Shown: positions 5,362-13,747 of the stretch, one piece after another | Position numbering within the stretch: the stretch's first letter is position 1 | Layout: the number at the start of each line of letters is the position of its first letter | Origin: Streptomyces griseiscabiei | GTDB lineage: Bacteria; Actinomycetota; Actinomycetes; Streptomycetales; Streptomycetaceae | NCBI RefSeq assembly: GCF_020010925.1 | Contig: NZ_JAGJBZ010000003.1 | Location: 310,001-374,000, forward strand | Length of the DNA stretch: 64,000 nt | Direction: 5' to 3' | The notes under the pieces: model-generated | Told to the model about the DNA's origin: nothing | Databases searched by the model: none | Seen by the model: the letters and a program-made list of their open reading frames with translations, nothing else | Made by a program: the position numbers and the translations under genes

Positions 5362-5748
5362 GTGAACGTCACCATCGCAAGGCGTCTGGGAGTCGGCATC
5401 GTCGCCGCCCTGGCGTTCGGCACGGCCGCGCCGGCCATGGCCTACGAGATCGGGCCGCACGCGTACGACGGCGAGCTCAGGTTCTGGACCGAGGGCACCC
5501 CGGACCGCGGCATCATGAACATCAAGGACACGGGTGAGGACCACTGGGTCAAGGCGGAGTACTACCGTGTGGCTCACGCGGACGACAAGCTCACCCTGTG
5601 GAACAAGGACGGCCCGAACGGCCCGGCCGACAACGACGGCAACCGGGGCACGGTGGAGAGCGGCGAGCACTCCGAGATCTTCAAGGCGCGGGGCACGGTG
5701 TCGCGCAACAACCTGCCCGACTATCACACCTCGTGGTTCACGGACTGA
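5362..5748 (+). CDS. Small secreted protein
   Basis: A 128-residue protein with a Sec signal peptide: NVTIARRLGVGIVAALAF followed by AAPAMA as the likely signal-peptidase I site. The GTG start is preceded by GAGAGGAAAG. The mature part (about 100 residues) is rich in Asp, Gly, His and aromatic residues (ELRFWTEGTPDRGIMNIKD, HWVKAEYYRVAHADDKLTLW) and has no Cys; it looks like a small beta-sandwich. No family is recognised. It is monocistronic with a strong terminator right after it. Confidence 0.75.
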   Translation: MNVTIARRLGVGIVAALAFGTAAPAMAYEIGPHAYDGELRFWTEGTPDRGIMNIKDTGEDHWVKAEYYRVAHADDKLTLWNKDGPNGPADNDGNRGTVESGEHSEIFKARGTVSRNNLPDYHTSWFTD

Positions 5749-5805
5749 CCCCGTGACGCGCGGGACGAGGGATCGGTCCCGGCGATTCTGATTCCTCGAG
5801 TCCGA

Positions 5806-5840
5806 TCTGACCGAGAGGCCGACAGTGCCTCTCGGTCAGA
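5806..5840 (+). terminator. Strong hairpin terminator
   Basis: A perfect 14-bp stem, TCTGACCGAGAGGC paired with GCCTCTCGGTCAGA, with a 7-base loop. It separates the small secreted protein from the downstream ABC transporter operon. Confidence 0.85.
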
Positions 5841-5906
5841 CGTGTTCGCCGTCCGCGCCGCCCTGTCACTTTTCCCCCTTCTGCCCTTCGATCGAGGGAG
5901 CCTCGT

Positions 5907-6593
5907 GTGACCCCACCCTCCACCCAGCCCGTCCTGCGTCTGAGTGACGTCGTCTACGGGGTATCCGAACGACGACTGCTCGCGGGCGCCGATCTCACCG
6001 TGCCGGCCGGCCGCTCCGTTTCCGTGATGGGGCCGTCCGGCAGTGGGAAGTCCACGCTGCTGATGTGCCTCATGGGACTGATACGTCCCGAGTCGGGCCT
6101 GGTCGAGGTCATGGGCGAGGACCTCGCCCGGATGTCGTCCCGGGCCCTGGCCACGCACCGGCGTCGGCACATCGGCATGGTGTTCCAGTTCGGGGAGTTA
6201 CTGCCCGAACTCACGCCGGTGGAGAACGTGATGATCGCGAGCCTGCTGTCCGGGGATCCGGTCACCGCCGCCCGCTCCCGCGCAGAGGAACTCCTCGACG
6301 GCCTGGGAGTACCGCTGGGCACGGCCACCCAGGATCTCTCCGGGGGCGAGCGCCAGCGCGTCGCCGTCGCCCGTGCCCTGGTGAACACTCCGGAACTGCT
6401 GTTGGCGGACGAGCCGACCGGCTCCCTCGACGGGGACCACCGGGGGGCCGTCGCGGACCTGTTGTTCAGGACGCCCCGTGACCACGGATGTGCCCTGGTC
6501 GTGGTCACGCACGATCCGGTGGTGGCGAGCCGCGCGGACATGCGACTGCATCTCGACGAAGGCCGACTGGTCCCGGCTGAGGAGGTCCGGTGA
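5907..6593 (+). CDS. ABC transporter ATP-binding protein (MacB/LolD type)
   Basis: A 228-residue ATPase that would power the FtsX-like permease encoded next. Motifs in order are Walker A GPSGSGKSTLL, the Q-loop in GMVFQFGELLPEL, the signature LSGGERQRVAVARAL, Walker B LLLADEPTGSLD and the switch His in VVVTHDPVVA. The fold and the MGPSGSGKST/DEPTGSLD combination fit the MacB/LolD branch, which exports lipids, lipoproteins or peptides. Codon 98 is TTA (6198-6200), the rare leucine codon read by the bldA tRNA, so translation is probably tied to development. The stop overlaps the permease start by four bases (GTGA). Confidence 0.92.
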   Translation: MTPPSTQPVLRLSDVVYGVSERRLLAGADLTVPAGRSVSVMGPSGSGKSTLLMCLMGLIRPESGLVEVMGEDLARMSSRALATHRRRHIGMVFQFGELLPELTPVENVMIASLLSGDPVTAARSRAEELLDGLGVPLGTATQDLSGGERQRVAVARALVNTPELLLADEPTGSLDGDHRGAVADLLFRTPRDHGCALVVVTHDPVVASRADMRLHLDEGRLVPAEEVR

Positions 6594-8755
6594 GCGGGGG
6601 TGGGCTGCGTCGGCAGCTGCTGCGCATGGGCCGGGCCGCCTCCTGGACCGCCGAGGCGGGCCGGATCCGCTTCTTCGCGTTGTTCGCGGCGACCGCGGTG
6701 GCGGTTCTCGCTGTCTGCGGACACCTCCTCGCTTCTGCCTCTTTCGACGGCCGGGCCGAGCGCAGTGCGGCCCGGTGGCCTCAGGTCACCGAGACCGGAA
6801 CGGGCGAACTGCTGTGGAAGGCGACGGTCGCGACCGTCACCGACCGGCAGTACGACGTGGTCTACATCGAGCCCCGTACCGCCGACGCTCCGCTGCCGCC
6901 CGGCCTTGACCGATGGCCCCGGCCCGGCGAGGCCGTCCTCTCACCGGCGCTCATGGCCGCCCATCCCGAGGTACGACACGAGTACGGCGAACCCGTGGGA
7001 ACGATCGCTGTCGCCGGACTGGAGGCGCCCGGCGAGTACTTCGTCTACGTGCGACCGTCCGCCGAGCGCCTCGACCCCGCATCGATGGCCGAGGTGACGG
7101 GTTTCGGCGTGACCTGGTCGCCACCTCTCGGTGAGCATCTGTACAACTTTGGTCCCGGAGAGTTCCGTTGGGCCTATTTGGCGCTGTTCGGCCTGCCCGC
7201 CGCGCTGTTCGTCGTGATCGCGGCCCGGGTGGGCGCTGCGGCGCGTGACCGGCGTACCGCGGTTCTCACTGCTCTCGGAGCGTCCACCGGTGCGCGTGCC
7301 TGGTTCACCGTGGGAGAGGCCGTCGTTCCCGTCACTCTCGGTGGACTGCTGGGGGTCCTGGCGGTCGCCCCCGTGCTCGCTGTCGACATTCCGTTGCCCC
7401 TGGTCGACTTCGTGCTCCACCGACCCGATGCCCGTGCCGCGTTCGGTGCCCTGGCCGTTGCCGCCCTCGCGGTTCCGTTCGCGGTGCTGGCCGCCGTGGT
7501 GCTGCTCCAGCCGCCCTACCGGCCCGGCCGGTCGACCCGGCCGGCCGTGGCGCGACGGCGTCGGGAATGGACGCTGTGGCTGTTCCCCATCGCCCTGTTC
7601 GGCACGGTCCAGGGCACCGGCCTGGCCCCGTACGACCTGCGGCTGCCCGTGCTGGCGACCGGATCCGTCATCACCATCGCGCTGCTTCCCGGAGTGGTCG
7701 GGGCGGTGGTTGCGGCGACCGGCCCGGCGATGGCGCGGGTCGGGGCGGCGCGCGGCCGGATCGGCATGCTGATCTCCGGGCGCCGACTCGCGGCCGGGGC
7801 GCGCCCGGTCGCGCGACTGGTCGCCGCGGTGGTGATCGCGATCGGGCTGGCTGCCCAGGGACAGATCGCCATCAGCCTCTTCACGGAGATGAGCGACCGC
7901 GTCGACGCCATGGAGAACCACCTGGGCACCAGCGTGCTGCGGGTCTCGACCACGATGGACACGCGATCGGCGGACATGACCGCCTTCGAGCGTGAGCTGG
8001 GCTCAGGGACCGGAGTGTTCGCCGTACGGCAGGACCTGCACAAGGGCCGGATGGATCTCGTGGCCCCCTGCGTGGTGTGGCGAGGGCTGGATCTCCCCTG
8101 CCCCGAGACGGCCACCGAGCTGCGCACCGCACGGCACCCCGGCCTCGCGCAAGCCGTGGAGCTGGAGAGGTCGGTGGGGGTGAGGCTGTACGCCGTGACG
8201 GGGGACGCCGGCGAGGCCGTACGGACGACCGAGGACCCGATCCTGATGGTTCTCGCCGACGATGGCCGGGAGTTGTCGACGGCAGGGGTGCACCGGGCCG
8301 CGAACGAGTATCTGGCGATGGCGACGAAGGTGACCGTCTTCGCCGCGGCCGGCACGCTCGGTGGGAGCGGCGAGGGAGTAGCCGCGCGGCAGTGGCTCGA
8401 ACTGCTCTCCGTTGCCGGGGTGCTGGTCATCGTGGTGGTGGCGGGCATCGGGTCCGTCGCCCAATTCGTGCGTGCGGGACGTGAGTTGGGGCCGGTCTCC
8501 GTGCTGACCGGTGACAGCCGGGTGTACTACGCGGTCTCTGTGTGGTCCCTGCTGGCACCCGTCGTCTTCGCGGTGTGTGCGGCGGTCGCCGTGACCTGGT
8601 TCGTGACCACGCCTCTCATGGCCGGCTCGGCGAGTCGGCTGTCCGCGCTGTCCGCGGTGGGTGGCGCGGGACTGCTCTGCGCCGCGGCGATGGCGTGGTG
8701 GGGTGCCCGTACGGCGGCGGCCACAGGCTCTGTCTGGCGCCCGCGCAACGACTGA
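6590..8755 (+). CDS. FtsX-like ABC transporter permease
   Basis: A 721-residue membrane protein, translationally coupled to the ATPase. About ten hydrophobic segments are visible: one near the N-terminus (FFALFAATAVAVLAVCGHLL), a large extracytoplasmic domain of roughly 140 residues with SASFDGRAERSAARW at its start, a membrane block around residues 180-420, a second external domain, and three C-terminal helices (SVAGVLVIVVVAGIGSVAQF, the VWSLLAPVVF region and the LLCAAAMAWW region). This duplicated arrangement is typical of FtsX/MacB permeases with two cores. Substrate unknown; export or mechanotransmission is more likely than uptake, since no binding protein is present. Confidence 0.85.
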   Translation: MSGGGLRRQLLRMGRAASWTAEAGRIRFFALFAATAVAVLAVCGHLLASASFDGRAERSAARWPQVTETGTGELLWKATVATVTDRQYDVVYIEPRTADAPLPPGLDRWPRPGEAVLSPALMAAHPEVRHEYGEPVGTIAVAGLEAPGEYFVYVRPSAERLDPASMAEVTGFGVTWSPPLGEHLYNFGPGEFRWAYLALFGLPAALFVVIAARVGAAARDRRTAVLTALGASTGARAWFTVGEAVVPVTLGGLLGVLAVAPVLAVDIPLPLVDFVLHRPDARAAFGALAVAALAVPFAVLAAVVLLQPPYRPGRSTRPAVARRRREWTLWLFPIALFGTVQGTGLAPYDLRLPVLATGSVITIALLPGVVGAVVAATGPAMARVGAARGRIGMLISGRRLAAGARPVARLVAAVVIAIGLAAQGQIAISLFTEMSDRVDAMENHLGTSVLRVSTTMDTRSADMTAFERELGSGTGVFAVRQDLHKGRMDLVAPCVVWRGLDLPCPETATELRTARHPGLAQAVELERSVGVRLYAVTGDAGEAVRTTEDPILMVLADDGRELSTAGVHRAANEYLAMATKVTVFAAAGTLGGSGEGVAARQWLELLSVAGVLVIVVVAGIGSVAQFVRAGRELGPVSVLTGDSRVYYAVSVWSLLAPVVFAVCAAVAVTWFVTTPLMAGSASRLSALSAVGGAGLLCAAAMAWWGARTAAATGSVWRPRND

Positions 8756-8807: not shown

Positions 8808-9617
8808 TCATCGTCGGTACGGATGAGGCATCGCCGCGCCGCTCGGCCGGAATCCGGTTCCCCTGCTGGCGGCCGTGTGGGAAAGGCCGGCCCGGGCCTC
8901 CGCGTCGGCTGTGGCGCTCGCGCCGACTCGGGCACCGGGTTCGGCGGAGATGCCTGCCTGGGCATCCGTTCCGGTGGAACAGCCGCTGTCCGCCTGCCAG
9001 GCGATACGGGCGGCTTGGACGCGGTTGTCGACCCCCAGTTTCGCGTAGATGGCACGGATGTGGTCCTTGACGGTGTGTCCGCTGATGTTCAGCGTGTCGG
9101 CTGTCTCCGCGTTCGCGACGCCCTTCTCCAGGAATCGCAGGATCTCCCTCTCACGAGGGCTGAGTAAGGCCACCAGCTTCAGCGCGGTGACCGTTTCCTC
9201 GGCCGGCCGGTCGGGCCTCGTGAGGCGGGCGGTCACGAATGCCGCGGCAGTGGGCGCGAGCGCGAGACCGCCCGCGGCGGCGGCCCGCACCGCCCAGTGC
9301 AGATGGCTGACGGAGTCCTCGCGGAGGAGGATTCCGTTGGCGCCGCGGCGCAGCAGCATCCTGGTGGTCTGTTCCGTCAGATGACTGACCAGCACGATGC
9401 TCGGCAGGGCCGGGGCCGTCGCGCGCAGCATGCTCAGTGCCTCGCTCGGGCTGTCGTGGATGGTGACGAGCAGGTTCGGCCTGGACGTCCGTACCAGGAG
9501 CGACGACTGGTCGGCCGGTCCCTCGCCGACGACCCGGATGCGCTCGTCCTCCTCCAGAACGCGCCGAACTCCCGCCCGTTCCAGTGACACACGCCCGATC
9601 ACTCCCACATGCAGCAT
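8808..9617 (-). CDS. LuxR/NarL-type regulator with degenerate receiver domain
   Basis: A 269-residue regulator convergent with the ABC transporter. Residues 1-120 follow a receiver fold but lack the usual acidic pocket (LHVGVIGRVSLERAGV) and the phospho-acceptor: the segment PNLLVTIHDSP has Ile where Asp is expected. It is therefore probably phosphorylation-independent. The output domain is normal: LLSPREREILRFLEKGVANA then ADTLNISGHTVKDHIRAIYAKL. About 50 residues after the HTH are Ala/Gly-rich and look disordered. Codon 151 is TTA (9165-9167), as in the neighbouring ATPase, suggesting joint bldA control. No kinase gene is adjacent. Confidence 0.88.
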   Translation of the reverse strand: MLHVGVIGRVSLERAGVRRVLEEDERIRVVGEGPADQSSLLVRTSRPNLLVTIHDSPSEALSMLRATAPALPSIVLVSHLTEQTTRMLLRRGANGILLREDSVSHLHWAVRAAAAGGLALAPTAAAFVTARLTRPDRPAEETVTALKLVALLSPREREILRFLEKGVANAETADTLNISGHTVKDHIRAIYAKLGVDNRVQAARIAWQADSGCSTGTDAQAGISAEPGARVGASATADAEARAGLSHTAASRGTGFRPSGAAMPHPYRR

Positions 9618-9964: not shown

Positions 9965-11026
9965 ATGGCCGGGCACACGACCGAAAAGCATCCGCATGGT
10001 GCCGACCGGCTCTGCGCGGCCGGGGACCGTGTGTACTCCAGAGCGGTACGGCGGGGCCGCGTCCCGCGCGAGGACGCCGACGCCGTGCCCTGCCTCCTCG
10101 AACTCGCCCTGCTGCACCCCGACCCCGACGACATGGGCTGGCTGATCCCGACCTCCCCGCAGGAGGTCATGACCCGGCTGCTGCGCGGCGTCCACGCGGA
10201 GGTCAGCGCCAGCCAGGCCCGGATGGGCGCGGCGGTGGACGCCGTCGAGTGGTACGCGGGCCTCGGCAGCTCCCGGGCCCGGCAGCCGGGGGAGAGCAGC
10301 GCGATCCGGGTGCTCGACGGGCTGGCCCGGATCCGCGCGGCGATCGACGAGGCCACCGACCGCTGTGCGACCGAGGTGCTGACCGTGCAGCCGGGCGGCA
10401 TCCGGCGCGAGGACGAGCTGCGTGAGGGGCTGCACCGGGCGCTGGCGATGTGCCGGCGGGGCGTGCGGATGCGGGACCTGTACACGCATGTGGCCCGGCA
10501 CGGGCAGGGCCTGCACAACTACATGGAGCTGATGGGGGAGTCGGCGGAGGCCCGCACCCTGGACGAGGTCGTGGAGCGCCTCATCGTCTTCGACCGTACG
10601 GTGGCCTTCATCCCCGCCAACAGCGACCGCACCATGGCCCTGGAGATCCGTCACCCCGCGCTGGTGGAGTACCTGGTCACGGTCTTCGAACGCCTCTGGC
10701 GCCTCGCCGTCCCGCTGGCCGCGTCCCTCCCCTCGACCGGCGTCGCGGGCATCACCCACCGGGAGCGGTCCATCGCCGCGCTGCTCGCGGAGGGGCATCA
10801 GGACGCGGTGGTCGCCGAGCGCCTCGGCATCAGCGTCCGCACCTGCCGGGCCCACATCGCCCGCCTCTCCGAACGCCTCGGCGCGGCCAGCCGCACCCAG
10901 CTCGGCGTCCGCATAGCCGAGGCCGGCCTCGAAGGCCCGCCCCGCACCACCCCACCGGACGACCTCCCCGCCCTTCCCTCCCCTACGCTCCCGGTCCCCG
11001 CTCCAGAATCCCCGACCGCCCGATGA
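9965..11026 (+). CDS. LuxR-HTH regulator with TrmB/PLD-like sensor region (paralog 1)
   Basis: A 353-residue regulator, the first of three related genes in this locus. The ATG at 9965 was chosen because GGGGGTGA precedes it by nine bases. The N-terminal part shows the shared block RLCAAGDRVYSRAVRRGRVP and ELALLHPDPDDMGWL. The middle (CRRGVRMRDLYTHVARHG, ARTLDEVVERLIVFDRTVAF, EIRHPALVEYLVTVF) resembles the phospholipase-D-like sensor of TrmB-type regulators. The C-terminal HTH is THRERSIAALLAEGHQDA followed by AERLGISVRTCRAHIARLSE. It has no receiver domain and no partner kinase. Its 3' end overlaps the convergent paralog by 44 bases. Ligand unknown. Confidence 0.85.
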   Translation: MAGHTTEKHPHGADRLCAAGDRVYSRAVRRGRVPREDADAVPCLLELALLHPDPDDMGWLIPTSPQEVMTRLLRGVHAEVSASQARMGAAVDAVEWYAGLGSSRARQPGESSAIRVLDGLARIRAAIDEATDRCATEVLTVQPGGIRREDELREGLHRALAMCRRGVRMRDLYTHVARHGQGLHNYMELMGESAEARTLDEVVERLIVFDRTVAFIPANSDRTMALEIRHPALVEYLVTVFERLWRLAVPLAASLPSTGVAGITHRERSIAALLAEGHQDAVVAERLGISVRTCRAHIARLSERLGAASRTQLGVRIAEAGLEGPPRTTPPDDLPALPSPTLPVPAPESPTAR

Positions 11027-11999
11027 GGTAGCCGAGCTGGGCCCGGCTCTCACTGCCGAGCAGTGAGGCGAGTTTGGCGATGTGGACGCGGGCGGTGCGG
11101 ATGTTGAGGCCGAGGCGGTCGGCTATGACGGCGTCGGTGTGGCCTTCGACGAGGAGGGTGGCTATGGCGCGTTGGCGGGGGGTGACGCCGTCGATGACAG
11201 GGAGCTGGACCGCGTCGGGGTACATGGGCGTCGCCAGGTGCCAGAAGCGGTCGAAGGTCGTGGCGAAGAACGAGATCAGCGTGGGGTGGCGGACCTCCAG
11301 GGCCAAGGTCCGCTCGGTGTCCGCCGGTATGAAGGCCACCGTGCGGTCGAGGAGGATGAGGCGGTCGGTGACCTGGTCCAGGGTGCGTGCCTCGGCGTCG
11401 CCACGCAGTTGTTCGTAGCGGGTCGCGATGAGCGGGGAGTGCCGGAGAGTGTGTGGGTAGAGAGCACGGATGCGGCAGCCCCGGGACAGCATGGCTTGGT
11501 CGCGTCCGAGGGAACCGGCCTGGCCATCTTGGCCGCGTCGGCCGTGTTGGTGGGTGTGTGGCTGGATGCAGAACATTTCCCGAGTCGCCTCGGCCATGGC
11601 TTCGGTGATGGCGGCGTTGATCTGCCCGACGCCACTGAGCAGGGTGACCGCAGGGGTACCGGTGTCGGACACTGCCGTGTGCGTGTCCGCCAGCCGCAGC
11701 AGCGGCTCGAAGGCCGCCGTCAGCCGTTCCTCCCGGCGCCGCTCCTCGGCGACCCGGTCCTCGATGCCGCGCAGCAGCCGGTGCAGGGCGGTCACGGGGG
11801 CGGCCGGCTCCAGCCGGTGCGGGGTCCCGATGGCCGGGTGCAGCAGACCGATGTCGATCAGGCAAGGCGCGGCGGCGGTTTCCTCGGCGGCTACGCCGCC
11901 TTCCCGCAGCGCCCGTGCGTAGAGCGCCGCGCCGGCCTCACACAGCTCGTCGGCCGCGTGCCCGTGGGGCTCAGCGGTCACCTGTGGCTCGCTTCCCAC
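10983..11999 (-). CDS. LuxR-HTH regulator with TrmB/PLD-like sensor region (paralog 2)
   Basis: A 338-residue paralog with the same layout: ELCEAGAALYARALREGGVA, DIGLLHPAIGTPHRL, the sensor segment SRGCRIRALYPHTLRHSP with ARTLDQVTDRLILLDRTVAF, and the HTH VTPRQRAIATLLVEGHTDA then ADRLGLNIRTARVHIAKLAS. A GTG start is used, one base after the stop of the upstream paralog, with AGGAAG as ribosome site inside that gene's end, so the two are cotranscribed and probably coupled. A His/Gly-rich insert (HTHQHGRRGQDGQ) interrupts the middle and is absent from the other copies. Confidence 0.85.
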   Translation of the reverse strand: MGSEPQVTAEPHGHAADELCEAGAALYARALREGGVAAEETAAAPCLIDIGLLHPAIGTPHRLEPAAPVTALHRLLRGIEDRVAEERRREERLTAAFEPLLRLADTHTAVSDTGTPAVTLLSGVGQINAAITEAMAEATREMFCIQPHTHQHGRRGQDGQAGSLGRDQAMLSRGCRIRALYPHTLRHSPLIATRYEQLRGDAEARTLDQVTDRLILLDRTVAFIPADTERTLALEVRHPTLISFFATTFDRFWHLATPMYPDAVQLPVIDGVTPRQRAIATLLVEGHTDAVIADRLGLNIRTARVHIAKLASLLGSESRAQLGYLIGRSGILERGPGA

Positions 12000-12000
12000 A

Positions 12001-13011
12001 TCAGTCGGCTTCCTGCTCCAGCAGCCCCGACTGGGCGATGAGATAGCCGAGCTGCGCCCTGCTGCCGCTGCCCAGCGCGGTCGCCAGCTTCGCTATATGG
12101 GCGCGGCAGGTGCGGACGTTCATCCCGAGGCGGCGGGCGATGGCCTCGTCGACGTGGCCCTCGACGAGCAGCTTGGCTATGGAGTGCTGGATGTCGGTGA
12201 TGCCGTCGGGGGCGGTTTCGTAGGGGGCGCCGGCGGTGAGGGGGACGGCGCGGGACCACATGAACTCGAACACCTTGATCAGGTAGCGGACCAGACCGGG
12301 GTGGCGGAGTTCCAGAGCGACCTGCCGGTCGTCGCGGGTGGGGATGAAGGCCACCGTCTCGTCGCACACGATGAGGCGTTCGACCAGCTCGTCGATGGTG
12401 CGTATCTCCACCTTGCCGGCCACCTGATCCACGTACGCCAGATTGGCGGGACTGTAGCGGGCGGTGTGCTGGTAGAGCGTCCGGATGCTGACGCCGCGTT
12501 CGAGCAGCGGTCGGTCCCGCTCCAGCCCCTGGACGATCCTGCGCTCGGGGCGGTTGGTGCTCGGCTGGACCGTGAGCATCTGGCTCTGGCACTGGGACGT
12601 GGCCAGGTCGAGTGCCGCGTTGATCCGGTCGCTTCCCTCCAGCACGGTGATCGAATGGGTGTCGCTGGCCACCCGGGCGCTGAGGGCCATGAACGGCTCG
12701 AAGGTCTCCGCCAGTTCGGTGGTCAGCCGCCGACGCTCGGTGATCTCACGTTCCAGCGGGTGCAGCCGCTGAGCCAAGGCGGCCGACGGAGGAATGGGGC
12801 GCAGCCAGTTCGCATCGTCGAGATCTGGCTGAAGCAGGCCGAACTCCATCAGACATGGAGCCGTCTCCACATCCGCACGGTCGATACGTCCCGCGCGAAG
12901 AGCATTCGCATAGAGACGGCTGCCGTCCTCGCACAGTTCGGTCACCGTGTGAGGATGTGTCCCTTTGGTCCAGCTTGTTGCCAAATCTCCACCCCCCAGG
13001 GTCCTGAACAT
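12001..13011 (-). CDS. LuxR-HTH regulator with TrmB/PLD-like sensor region (paralog 3)
   Basis: A 336-residue paralog and first gene of a two-regulator operon, divergent from the exported-peptide gene. Conserved blocks: ELCEDGSRLYANALRAGRID, EFGLLQPDLDDANWL, the sensor ERGVSIRTLYQHTARYSP and RTIDELVERLIVCDETVAF, and the HTH ITDIQHSIAKLLVEGHVDEA with ARRLGMNVRTCRAHIAKLAT. The true start is uncertain: the first ATG lacks a good ribosome site, and an internal TTG about 30 bases later sits close behind GGTGGAG. Its position suggests it senses or controls the neighbouring peptide/Rieske-like unit. Confidence 0.83.
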   Translation of the reverse strand: MFRTLGGGDLATSWTKGTHPHTVTELCEDGSRLYANALRAGRIDRADVETAPCLMEFGLLQPDLDDANWLRPIPPSAALAQRLHPLEREITERRRLTTELAETFEPFMALSARVASDTHSITVLEGSDRINAALDLATSQCQSQMLTVQPSTNRPERRIVQGLERDRPLLERGVSIRTLYQHTARYSPANLAYVDQVAGKVEIRTIDELVERLIVCDETVAFIPTRDDRQVALELRHPGLVRYLIKVFEFMWSRAVPLTAGAPYETAPDGITDIQHSIAKLLVEGHVDEAIARRLGMNVRTCRAHIAKLATALGSGSRAQLGYLIAQSGLLEQEAD

Positions 13012-13097
13012 GCAGGAACATGATGCACCGATTATGTGGCCATGACGTGCCCGAATGAGCCATCGTCGTACACGACGGGGGAAGAGGGGACCTTCAA

Positions 13098-13325
13098 GTG
13101 AGGACGAAGCCGACTATGCGTAAGGGATTGCTTCGCTCGGTGCTTGTCGCCGCCTTCTCCGCCGTTATGGCCTTCGGAGTGGTGAGTGTGCACTCCGCTG
13201 CGAAGAGCGACGCGCCTGCGGACAGCTATTGGGGTGGGGCGGTGGTGCAGATGGACACCGTCGTGCCCGGCGACAGTATCTGGCCATTGGCGCCACAGGG
13301 TTCGGACGAGACTGTGCAGGCATGA
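13098..13325 (+). CDS. Short exported peptide, possible signal or modified-peptide precursor
   Basis: A 75-residue protein. The GTG start follows AGGGGA at suitable spacing. The N-terminus (MRTKPTMRKGLLRSVLVAA, then FSAVMAFGVVSVHSAA) is a classical signal peptide with a likely cut near HSAA/KSD, leaving about 40 residues: SDAPADSYWGGAVVQMDTVV then PGDSIWPLAPQGSDETVQA. The mature part has no Cys, two Trp and one Tyr, and is acidic. Only one base separates its stop from the start of the Rieske-like gene, so they form one operon. The family is not recognised. Roles as an extracellular signal for the adjacent regulators or as a modified-peptide precursor are inference only. Confidence 0.7.
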   Translation: MRTKPTMRKGLLRSVLVAAFSAVMAFGVVSVHSAAKSDAPADSYWGGAVVQMDTVVPGDSIWPLAPQGSDETVQA

Positions 13326-13326
13326 C

Positions 13327-13662
13327 ATGACGACTCCTCCCGACGACCGTTCCTTCCGCCGCGAGATGGCCACCGCCTATCGCTCCGGTTGGCACTTCAT
13401 CGACCTGGCCACCGCCATCCCCCACAGCGGTGACTCGTTGATGGTGACCGTGTTCGGCGAACCGGTGGTGGTGACGCGGGACGAGGACGAGGACATCCGG
13501 GCGTACCGGTGTCTGCGGCGACCGCGCGGCGCGCCGCAGCCAGTGCGGTGTGCCGTTCGGTACGGGATGGTCTTCGTCAATCTCGACCAGCGCGACCACC
13601 GGCTCGCCGAGCCGGAGACCACGGCCTCCACGGCCGTCTCAGCCACCCCCCGCAGTGCCTGA
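13327..13662 (+). CDS. Small Rieske-oxygenase-like protein with incomplete cluster motif
   Basis: A 111-residue protein. SGWHFIDLATAIPHSGDSLM, VTVFGEPVVVTRDEDEDIRA and RYGMVFVNLD match the N-terminal domain of Rieske non-heme oxygenases, where they flank the 2Fe-2S loops. Here the first loop reads YRCLRRPRGAPQ (RGAP kept, ligand His missing) and the second C-x2-H loop is deleted, so a normal Rieske cluster is unlikely. The ATG lies one base after the peptide gene's stop. The frame is open with normal codon bias, which argues for a retained protein rather than a fresh pseudogene. It could bind or modify the peptide, but function is unknown. Confidence 0.65.
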   Translation: MTTPPDDRSFRREMATAYRSGWHFIDLATAIPHSGDSLMVTVFGEPVVVTRDEDEDIRAYRCLRRPRGAPQPVRCAVRYGMVFVNLDQRDHRLAEPETTASTAVSATPRSA

Positions 13663-13706
13663 AGCGATTCCCCCGTCGTTTCAAATCGCTCAGGCGCTTC
13701 CCCCCA

Positions 13707-13747
13707 GCAGCGGCGTCACCGTGACCTGAACACGGTGACGCCGCTGC
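13707..13747 (+). terminator. Very strong hairpin terminator
   Basis: A perfect 17-bp stem (GCAGCGGCGTCACCGTG with CACGGTGACGCCGCTGC) and a 7-base loop, 44 bases after the Rieske-like gene. It isolates the peptide/Rieske-like unit as its own transcript. Confidence 0.88.

Follow-up and report, generated by a model that had tools for sequence, protein, structure and literature searches.

A candidate D-x-x-W tetrapeptide signal and its predicted TrmB/PLD-LuxR receptor in Streptomyces

In the gamma-butyrolactone systems of Streptomyces, cytosolic TetR-type receptors are paired with species-specific small-molecule signals that are made by enzymes, and in yeast one exported precursor carries tandem copies of the same short signal, alpha-factor, which acts on a eukaryotic G-protein-coupled receptor at the cell surface. 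TrmB regulators have an N-terminal winged helix-turn-helix (HTH) domain and a sugar-binding sensor. Peptides are the signals of the RRNPP systems of the Bacillota (Rap, PlcR, PrgX, Rgg and NprR), for which we follow the criteria given in PMC10075063; according to that source, communication among actinomycetes is usually described in terms of enzyme-made small molecules, and the review PMC4748050 also mentions cyclic or modified peptides. Here we describe a locus in a window (the whole stretch of DNA that was analysed, 64,000 nucleotides, G000:C3:310001-374000) of the 10.6-Mb genome of Streptomyces griseiscabiei, in which the gene of a regulator, R3, diverges from that of a small exported precursor with D-x-x-W cores. 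Comparison of sequences supports R3 as the predicted receptor of the D-x-x-W tetrapeptide, and a secreted tetrapeptide pheromone that is read by R3, as a cytosolic one-component receptor, is the explanation that we hold to be probable. The features on which the argument is built are:

12001-13011, minus strand: R3, 336 amino acids, TrmB/PLD-like sensor and LuxR-type HTH; predicted receptor from fold, covariation and adjacency
12577-12579: R3 codon of predicted contact Met145, from covariation
12556-12558: R3 codon of predicted contact Thr152, from covariation
12550-12552: R3 codon of predicted contact Arg154, from covariation
12514-12516: R3 codon of predicted contact Asp166, from covariation
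12442-12444: R3 codon of predicted contact Asn190, weaker than the other four
13012-13097: divergent promoter region between R3 and the peptide gene, candidate operator, with several blocks that are conserved to at least 95% across the aligned loci
13098-13325, plus strand: exported peptide precursor, 75 amino acids, a signal-like segment followed by two D-x-x-W cores
13221-13232, plus strand: core 1, DSYW, residues 42-45
13272-13283, plus strand: core 2, DSIW, residues 59-62

D-x-x-W cores in the precursors beside R3

Loci were gathered through the Rieske-like protein that is encoded next to the precursor. The 80 named loci are the best 80 of 468 matches and belong to Streptomyces, with one exception labelled just "Actinobacteria bacterium"; 80 more come from lower-scoring matches in a 150-genome sample of the genus (80 of the 95 matches that lacked a locus), and the loci L120-L162 of the genus and family samples were left out of the analysis. 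In the named loci the gene order is R1 (+), zero to four full-length copies of R2 (-), R3 (-), the divergent peptide gene (+) and the Rieske-like gene (+), usually followed, where the contig permits, by a PNPOx-like gene (-, "PPOX") and then by ClpB (+). R3 is present in 80 of 80 loci in both sets; R1 is found in 76 of the 80 named loci, where the four exceptions fall at contig ends or in a masked stretch, and in just 31 of the second 80. Thus, in every one of the 160 fetched loci, R3 neighbours the Rieske-like gene, and a precursor open reading frame (ORF), which ends within 45 bases of the Rieske-like start, occurs in 161 of 161 with the window included, all 161 having been found via the Rieske-like gene. 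The original prediction had placed three regulators, an exported 75-mer, a Rieske-like gene and a hairpin in this part of the window, and all of them lie where it had put them. It had also named absence or random placement of the small genes in relatives that keep the regulators as the observation that would speak against a link; when such cases were looked for, the arrangement held at the ClpB-linked locus.

The signal-like segment of the precursor was read from the sequence, and its start in relatives is often MRTKPTM... The motif [DEN]xxW, hereafter [D/E/N]-x1-x2-W, is matched by 159 of the 161 precursors, the other two reading F/I-TEW, and is present in 1 to 12 copies. Altogether 45 distinct tetrapeptides and, among the 159, 40 distinct locus consensuses were found, including DSTW, DSSW, DSGW, DTSW, DSVW, DSHW, DLGW, DIGW, EPSW, DTVW, DSKW, DVGW, DTRW, EISW, DITW and DPGW. 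The longest array seen, twelve EPSW cores, is that of L236, and L192 has nine DSGW. All four core residues are identical in 120 of the 129 multi-copy precursors, while the linkers diverge: mean identity within a precursor is 0.996, 0.987, 0.942 and 1.0 at core positions 1-4, 0.745 at the residue after the Trp and 0.16-0.41 in the flanks. The window precursor is one of the nine inhomogeneous ones, with Ser at x1 in both its cores, and x1 is nevertheless constant in seven of the nine. At positions with the same residue, codon agreement is 0.62 for x1 and 0.59 for x2, compared with 0.41-0.68 in the flanks, and synonymous differences between repeats occur in 101 of the 120 homogeneous precursors. 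Because the cores are identical, the linkers have diverged and the repeats differ synonymously, the comparison indicates that selection is acting on the tetrapeptide at the protein level; the repeats are not fresh DNA copies, and each must yield the same short peptide.

A strict scan places a D-x-x-W ORF upstream of R3 in 140 of 158 cases, and upstream of R1 or R2 in none (0/108 and 0/114, respectively). Eight precursors were read by eye, and all of them were recovered by the final ORF caller.

Covariation of R3 with the peptide, at the locus and elsewhere

A Mantel test was run on the 142 loci having all control genes, with ClpB, PPOX and Rieske-like distances as controls. The motif distance correlates with the distance of the R3 sensor (partial r 0.467, permutation standard deviation 0.04, p 0.001) and also with that of the R3 HTH (partial r 0.303), but controlling for the sensor lowers the latter to 0.046 (p 0.10), whereas 0.375 is left for the sensor after control for the HTH. 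For PPOX the partial r is 0.035 (p 0.20).

Site rules were tested on 157 loci, four of the 161 (L034, L036, L061 and L202) having been dropped for lack of an R3 translation longer than 300 amino acids. Site by site, residue 145 is the single R3 position that stands out for x1: Met145 is found in 70 of 70 loci with Ser at x1 and in 0 of 87 with another residue there, Thr is accompanied by Val (32) or Leu (2), and Pro by Leu (12/12). Asp166 accompanies Ser/Thr at x1 in 104 of 104 loci and is missing from each of the 53 others. For x2, Ser154 goes with Arg/Lys (11/13 vs 0/144 others), Arg154 is not seen with a basic residue (0/22 vs 104/135 others), and Asp152 accompanies His (9/9 vs 11/148 others). 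These pairings show complementarity of size, hydrogen bonding and charge, such as direct contact would be expected to produce. The adjusted mutual information of the best site with x1 is 0.70 for R3, compared with 0.39 for the Rieske-like protein, 0.29 for ClpB, 0.27 for PPOX and 0.15 for R1; in the same order, the best-site association is 0.74, 0.51, 0.36, 0.31 and 0.25 with the Ser/Thr label, and 0.36, 0.19, 0.10, 0.10 and 0.12 with x2.

On the control-gene tree (ClpB, PPOX and Rieske-like; 154 tips) the switch between Ser and non-Ser takes at least 31 changes, and on R3 trees without the contact codons 21-22, with about 51 for shuffled labels. With so many changes on both kinds of tree, block transfer cannot explain the pattern. 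Fifteen left-out matches were fetched later, of which 13 have R3 and the peptide and two (L340 and L344) have neither. In the held-out set, fetched after the rules had been fixed, all 13 loci with R3 and a D-x-x-W ORF fit (Ser-Met 6/6, Thr-Val 2/2, Ile-Val 1/1, Pro-Leu 4/4), with Asp166 in 8/8 with Ser/Thr and 0/5 others.

The window genome encodes a fourth TrmB-LuxR paralog at G000:C1:1053299-1054282 (L243), which forms an unlinked second pair:

L243 7300-8307, plus strand: fourth TrmB-LuxR paralog
L243 7010-7210, minus strand: its divergent exported peptide

The exported ORF ends NAPGDPGWP (core DPGW), and the receptor has Leu145, like the loci with Pro. From 150 family genomes another 60 off-locus relatives (L244-L303) were added, from the highest score downwards, ClpB-linked matches and split fragments being skipped. 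A divergent signal-bearing [DEN]xxW ORF is found in 31 of the 61, whereas with W replaced by F, Y, H, M or I the count is 1, 2, 2, 0 and 2, respectively. Controls of spacing and class gave 12 ([DEN].W), 10 ([DEN]...W), 5 ([STG]..W), 3 ([KRH]..W) and 2 (W..[DEN]), the spacing variants reaching 10-12 partly because DDRW fits such patterns too. An acidic residue 166 is found in all 13 relatives with Ser/Thr and in 1 of 18 others (p 7e-8), or 9/9 vs 1/8 (p 4e-4) in the non-redundant set (<60% identity), and Val145 occurs in 8 of 8 with Thr and in 6 of 23 others. An additional relative, in G372 (L345), has DDEW with Leu145 and Ala166, and with it the counts become 32/62 and 13/13 vs 1/19. When the 30 relatives lacking a strict match were rescanned with relaxed settings, six ORFs came up, and four of these (L260, L264, L272 and L287) look plausible; the four fit the code but are post hoc, and were left out of the counts.

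At class level a relative is found in 49 of 246 genomes, roughly half of these belonging to the genus of the window. In other families (L320-L329), scanned on both strands over about 1.5 kb for ORFs of at least 30 amino acids, with no control motif and with signal-bearing ORFs picked by eye, a D-x-x-W ORF lies beside the gene in 7 of 10 loci, the core mostly following closely on a signal-peptidase-like site. Met145 is present with Ser in 3/3 and with Thr in 0/4, and Asp166 in 7/7, all seven having Ser/Thr; residue 166 gets no contrast here because x1 is only Ser or Thr. In L320-L325, from another actinomycete family, the core begins 0-1 residue past the signal-peptidase-like site (AHA-DTSWG), and the peptide ORF is placed past the receptor gene's 3' end instead of upstream.

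The sensor core of the regulators had been called TrmB/PLD-like, and this label is correct: when R3 was modelled with AlphaFold2 (alignment of 75 rows; mean predicted local distance difference test score, pLDDT, 78.6; predicted template modelling score, pTM, 0.49), residues 118-258 or thereabouts took a PLD/TrmB-like fold and residues 267-334 that of a LuxR HTH. By fold the sensor matches the TrmB/TrmBL2 structures 2f5t, 3qph and 5bpi, and the matches of the HTH region are to structures of VqmA and of the NarL family. Domain scans of R1-R3 returned solely LuxR HTH and generic HTH models, besides sub-threshold matches: the LuxR (GerE) HTH is above the Pfam cut-off in R1 (E 1.8e-10) and R2 (E 5.7e-6) and below it in R3 (E 0.005), where the fold match at 267-334 is present. 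Pfam gave no match to a TPR family in R3, nor to an autoinducer-binding domain or the TrmB family in R1-R3, and the NCBIfam matches are confined to the HTH region; the HTH is of the C-terminal LuxR type, with no N-terminal TrmB winged HTH. A role in anti-phage defence was rejected, as PADLOC gave no match for R3, the Rieske-like protein or the peptide.

Proposed mechanism and rival readings

The small gene would give rise to a precursor that, to judge from its signal sequence, is exported and then cut outside the cell into free D-x-x-W peptides, probably of 4-5 residues given the conservation between repeats. The peptide would re-enter the cell, presumably via an oligopeptide permease (no importer is linked), and the covariation suggests that R3 binds it in the TrmB/PLD-like sensor domain. 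There, residue 145 would face x1 according to size, with Met for Ser, and Val, Leu or smaller residues for Thr and larger ones, Asp166 would pair with the hydroxyl of Ser/Thr, and residues 152 and 154 would set the permitted charge at x2. Binding may alter the grip of R3 on the conserved divergent promoter, leading to autoregulation of precursor and receptor, and the variation of x1 and x2 between species would establish private dialects. Beyond this locus we lean, with less assurance, towards a large peptide pheromone family in actinomycetes, with D-x-x-W precursors, TrmB/PLD-LuxR receptors, a residue code, dozens of Streptomyces dialects and extra receptors that may overhear neighbours.

Several observations weigh against the proposed peptide-receptor pair. 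The R3 model has a pTM of 0.49, the residue contacts are predictions from covariation, and the ORF caller used for the 161 loci favoured motif-bearing ORFs. The Rieske-like protein also correlates with the motif, if more weakly (partial r 0.178, p 0.001), as does, faintly, ClpB (partial r 0.065, p 0.034), so that some linkage or ancestry signal exists; the 0.51 of the Rieske-like site for Ser/Thr is a fair association, and that of Asp166 has few independent events, because it switches just 3-6 times on the R3 trees. A second Rieske-like copy in L340 (about 6001-6324, 64% identical) has neither R3 nor a peptide beside it. The strict scan found no such ORF for 30 of the 61 off-locus relatives. 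Nor does the Ser-Met rule hold throughout: among these relatives Ser is paired with Leu four times and with Ala once, DDRW has Met145 (L303), Pro occurs with Leu twice and with Val once (L292), and DMGW comes with Glu166 (L248). L298 has two candidate ORFs, of which DTSW was counted; with DHRW instead, the acidic residue 166 stands at 12/12 vs 2/19.

The main rival, which we regard as unlikely, is that R3 binds the D-x-x-W segment while the precursor is still in the cytosol and not yet exported, as a self-contained feedback or a monitor of secretion and not for signalling from cell to cell. All of the covariation fits this equally, and neither an importer nor a protease is among the conserved neighbours that were tracked. 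However, the many identical cores (up to 12) and the strong divergence between species suit a released ligand better, and in L320-L325, where the predicted mature protein starts with the core or nearly so, a free peptide could easily be released.

Improbable, in turn, is that the cores are matured to a modified product, akin to the ribosomally synthesised and post-translationally modified peptides, which is sensed by R3, with the Rieske-like protein aiding the modification. A constant Trp and an acidic residue do flank the variable ones, and in the 161 loci, which were found through it, the Rieske-like gene comes immediately after the peptide ORF:

13327-13662, plus strand: Rieske-like protein, 111 amino acids, without iron-sulphur ligands, conserved in the genus

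The ligands of the Rieske [2Fe-2S] cluster are CxH and CxxH. This cluster-binding segment is absent from the protein, which has a conserved RCLRRPRGAPQPVRC in its place, and the lack of ligands led to its rejection as an iron-sulphur enzyme. It appears to resemble the N-terminal part of the alpha subunits of Rieske oxygenases (GbcA residues 40-103, E 1.4e-7, below the cut-off of that model; Foldseek best E 3e-3, probability 1.0, template modelling score 0.46-0.60 by query, for a model with pLDDT 73), and it ends as that N-terminal domain does (YGMxFVNLD), but it has no Rieske oxygenase catalytic domain. Conservation is high, at 74-90% (38 relatives aligned of 120 listed). Matches at E 1e-10 are found in 124 of 150 genus genomes, of which four are weak (41-44% identity): three belong to diverged but complete loci, and one, L344, is apparently a different oxygenase, the match looking like part of a larger protein. 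In a family sample of 101 genomes from 17 genera, 19 genomes match, all of the window's genus, and no homolog was found in the other 16 genera. Off-locus pairs and pairs in other genera nevertheless exist, so that the Rieske-like protein seems not to be essential to peptide-receptor pairs in general; nothing was found in support of its modifying the peptide.

Very improbable, and already largely refuted, is that the repeats were homogenised by slippage or gene conversion and that the correlation between R3 and the motif is mere co-movement of neighbours: the 86 bp between R3 and the peptide gene and the Rieske-like partial correlation of 0.178 are in its favour, but the synonymous differences between repeats (101/120), whose linkers have diverged, led to the rejection of DNA homogenisation as the only reason why the repeats are identical. 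Simple linkage was rejected on the partial correlations, on the site associations, which for x1 reach 0.70 in R3 and 0.39 in the Rieske-like gene although the latter lies closer, and on the residue-166 rule, which also holds in unlinked relatives, to which the 21-22 changes between Ser and non-Ser on R3's own trees are added.

Among the three regulators the site-level covariation points to R3, in support of the original prediction, in which at least one of them reads the peptide, be it a signal or a modified product. The paralogs R1 and R2 and the hairpin are located as follows:

9965-11026, plus strand: R1 paralog, with hardly any variation at the pocket equivalents (V, A, G, R, L)
10983-11999, minus strand: R2 paralog, the window copy having Met145 and Asp166 equivalents
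13707-13747: perfect 17-bp inverted repeat after the peptide/Rieske-like unit, without a T-run

R1 was rejected as a reader of the peptide because of its near-constant pocket and a negative partial correlation with the motif (partial r -0.108, p 0.985; 92 loci with R1), and we propose that it reads something else. R2 was rejected as the main reader, since its pocket residues, variable among the 0-4 full-length copies of the named loci, do not track the linked peptide; speculatively, R2 copies could be extra or eavesdropping receptors. Some R2 copies are fragmentary (split or short matches), as if receptors were quickly gained and lost, and examples of the variation upstream of R3 are L044, L052, L056, L065, L026, L049, L050 and L086. 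On the far side of R1 lie a response-regulator-like LuxR protein (8808-9617; MadR-like NCBIfam match below cut-off, receiver weak in Pfam) and, in 5362-8755, a 128-residue exported-looking protein without a Pfam match, an ABC ATPase (5907-6593) and a 721-residue protein with a sub-threshold FtsX match (6590-8755).

Comparison with known systems

If the proposed signalling is real, it would be a gene-encoded peptide channel that is widely shared, as judged by the linked Rieske-like marker (124/150 genus genomes), and a new layer of control over when antibiotic producers act. A large set of LuxR regulators that have no known signal would also gain a ligand class, and the TrmB/PLD fold would be seen to sense peptides as well. 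A readable residue code would permit prediction of the ligand from the sequence, and synthetic tetrapeptides are cheap, which makes the prediction directly testable. No description of this system was found in the open PubMed Central literature, most subscription papers and preprints being outside its scope, and R3 with D-x-x-W would represent a variety of peptide signalling with a cytosolic receptor whose receptor and ligand type were not found described.

With the archaeal regulators TrmB and TrmBL2, R3 has the sensor fold in common, but its HTH is C-terminal and of the LuxR type, and its predicted ligand is a peptide. The C-terminal LuxR HTH is shared with the quorum-sensing receptors SdiA, CviR and VqmA, whereas the sensor of R3 is not an autoinducer-binding or PAS domain and its signal would be a gene-encoded peptide. 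The precursor layout is like that of yeast alpha-factor, without homology, and the gamma-butyrolactone systems are alike in their cytosolic receptor and species-specific signal, which is, however, made by enzymes and not encoded by a gene. As in RRNPP systems, the gene of a small exported propeptide adjoins that of a cytosolic one-component receptor of 250-500 amino acids, the 336 residues of R3 lying within this range, and peptide and receptor diverge together between species. The RRNPP propeptide has 10-100 residues, is Sec-exported and is encoded adjacently; the precursor here has 75, is signal-like by sequence and is encoded adjacently and divergently, and in some relatives exceeds 100. 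RRNPP receptors bind the mature peptide after its re-import, and for R3 such binding is predicted from the covariation. The core here is D-x-x-W, often in several identical copies, the hosts are actinomycetes, and the receptor combines TrmB/PLD with a LuxR HTH. The R3-peptide system would work most like the RRNPP systems but lacks the receptor feature that defines them, the TPR repeats.

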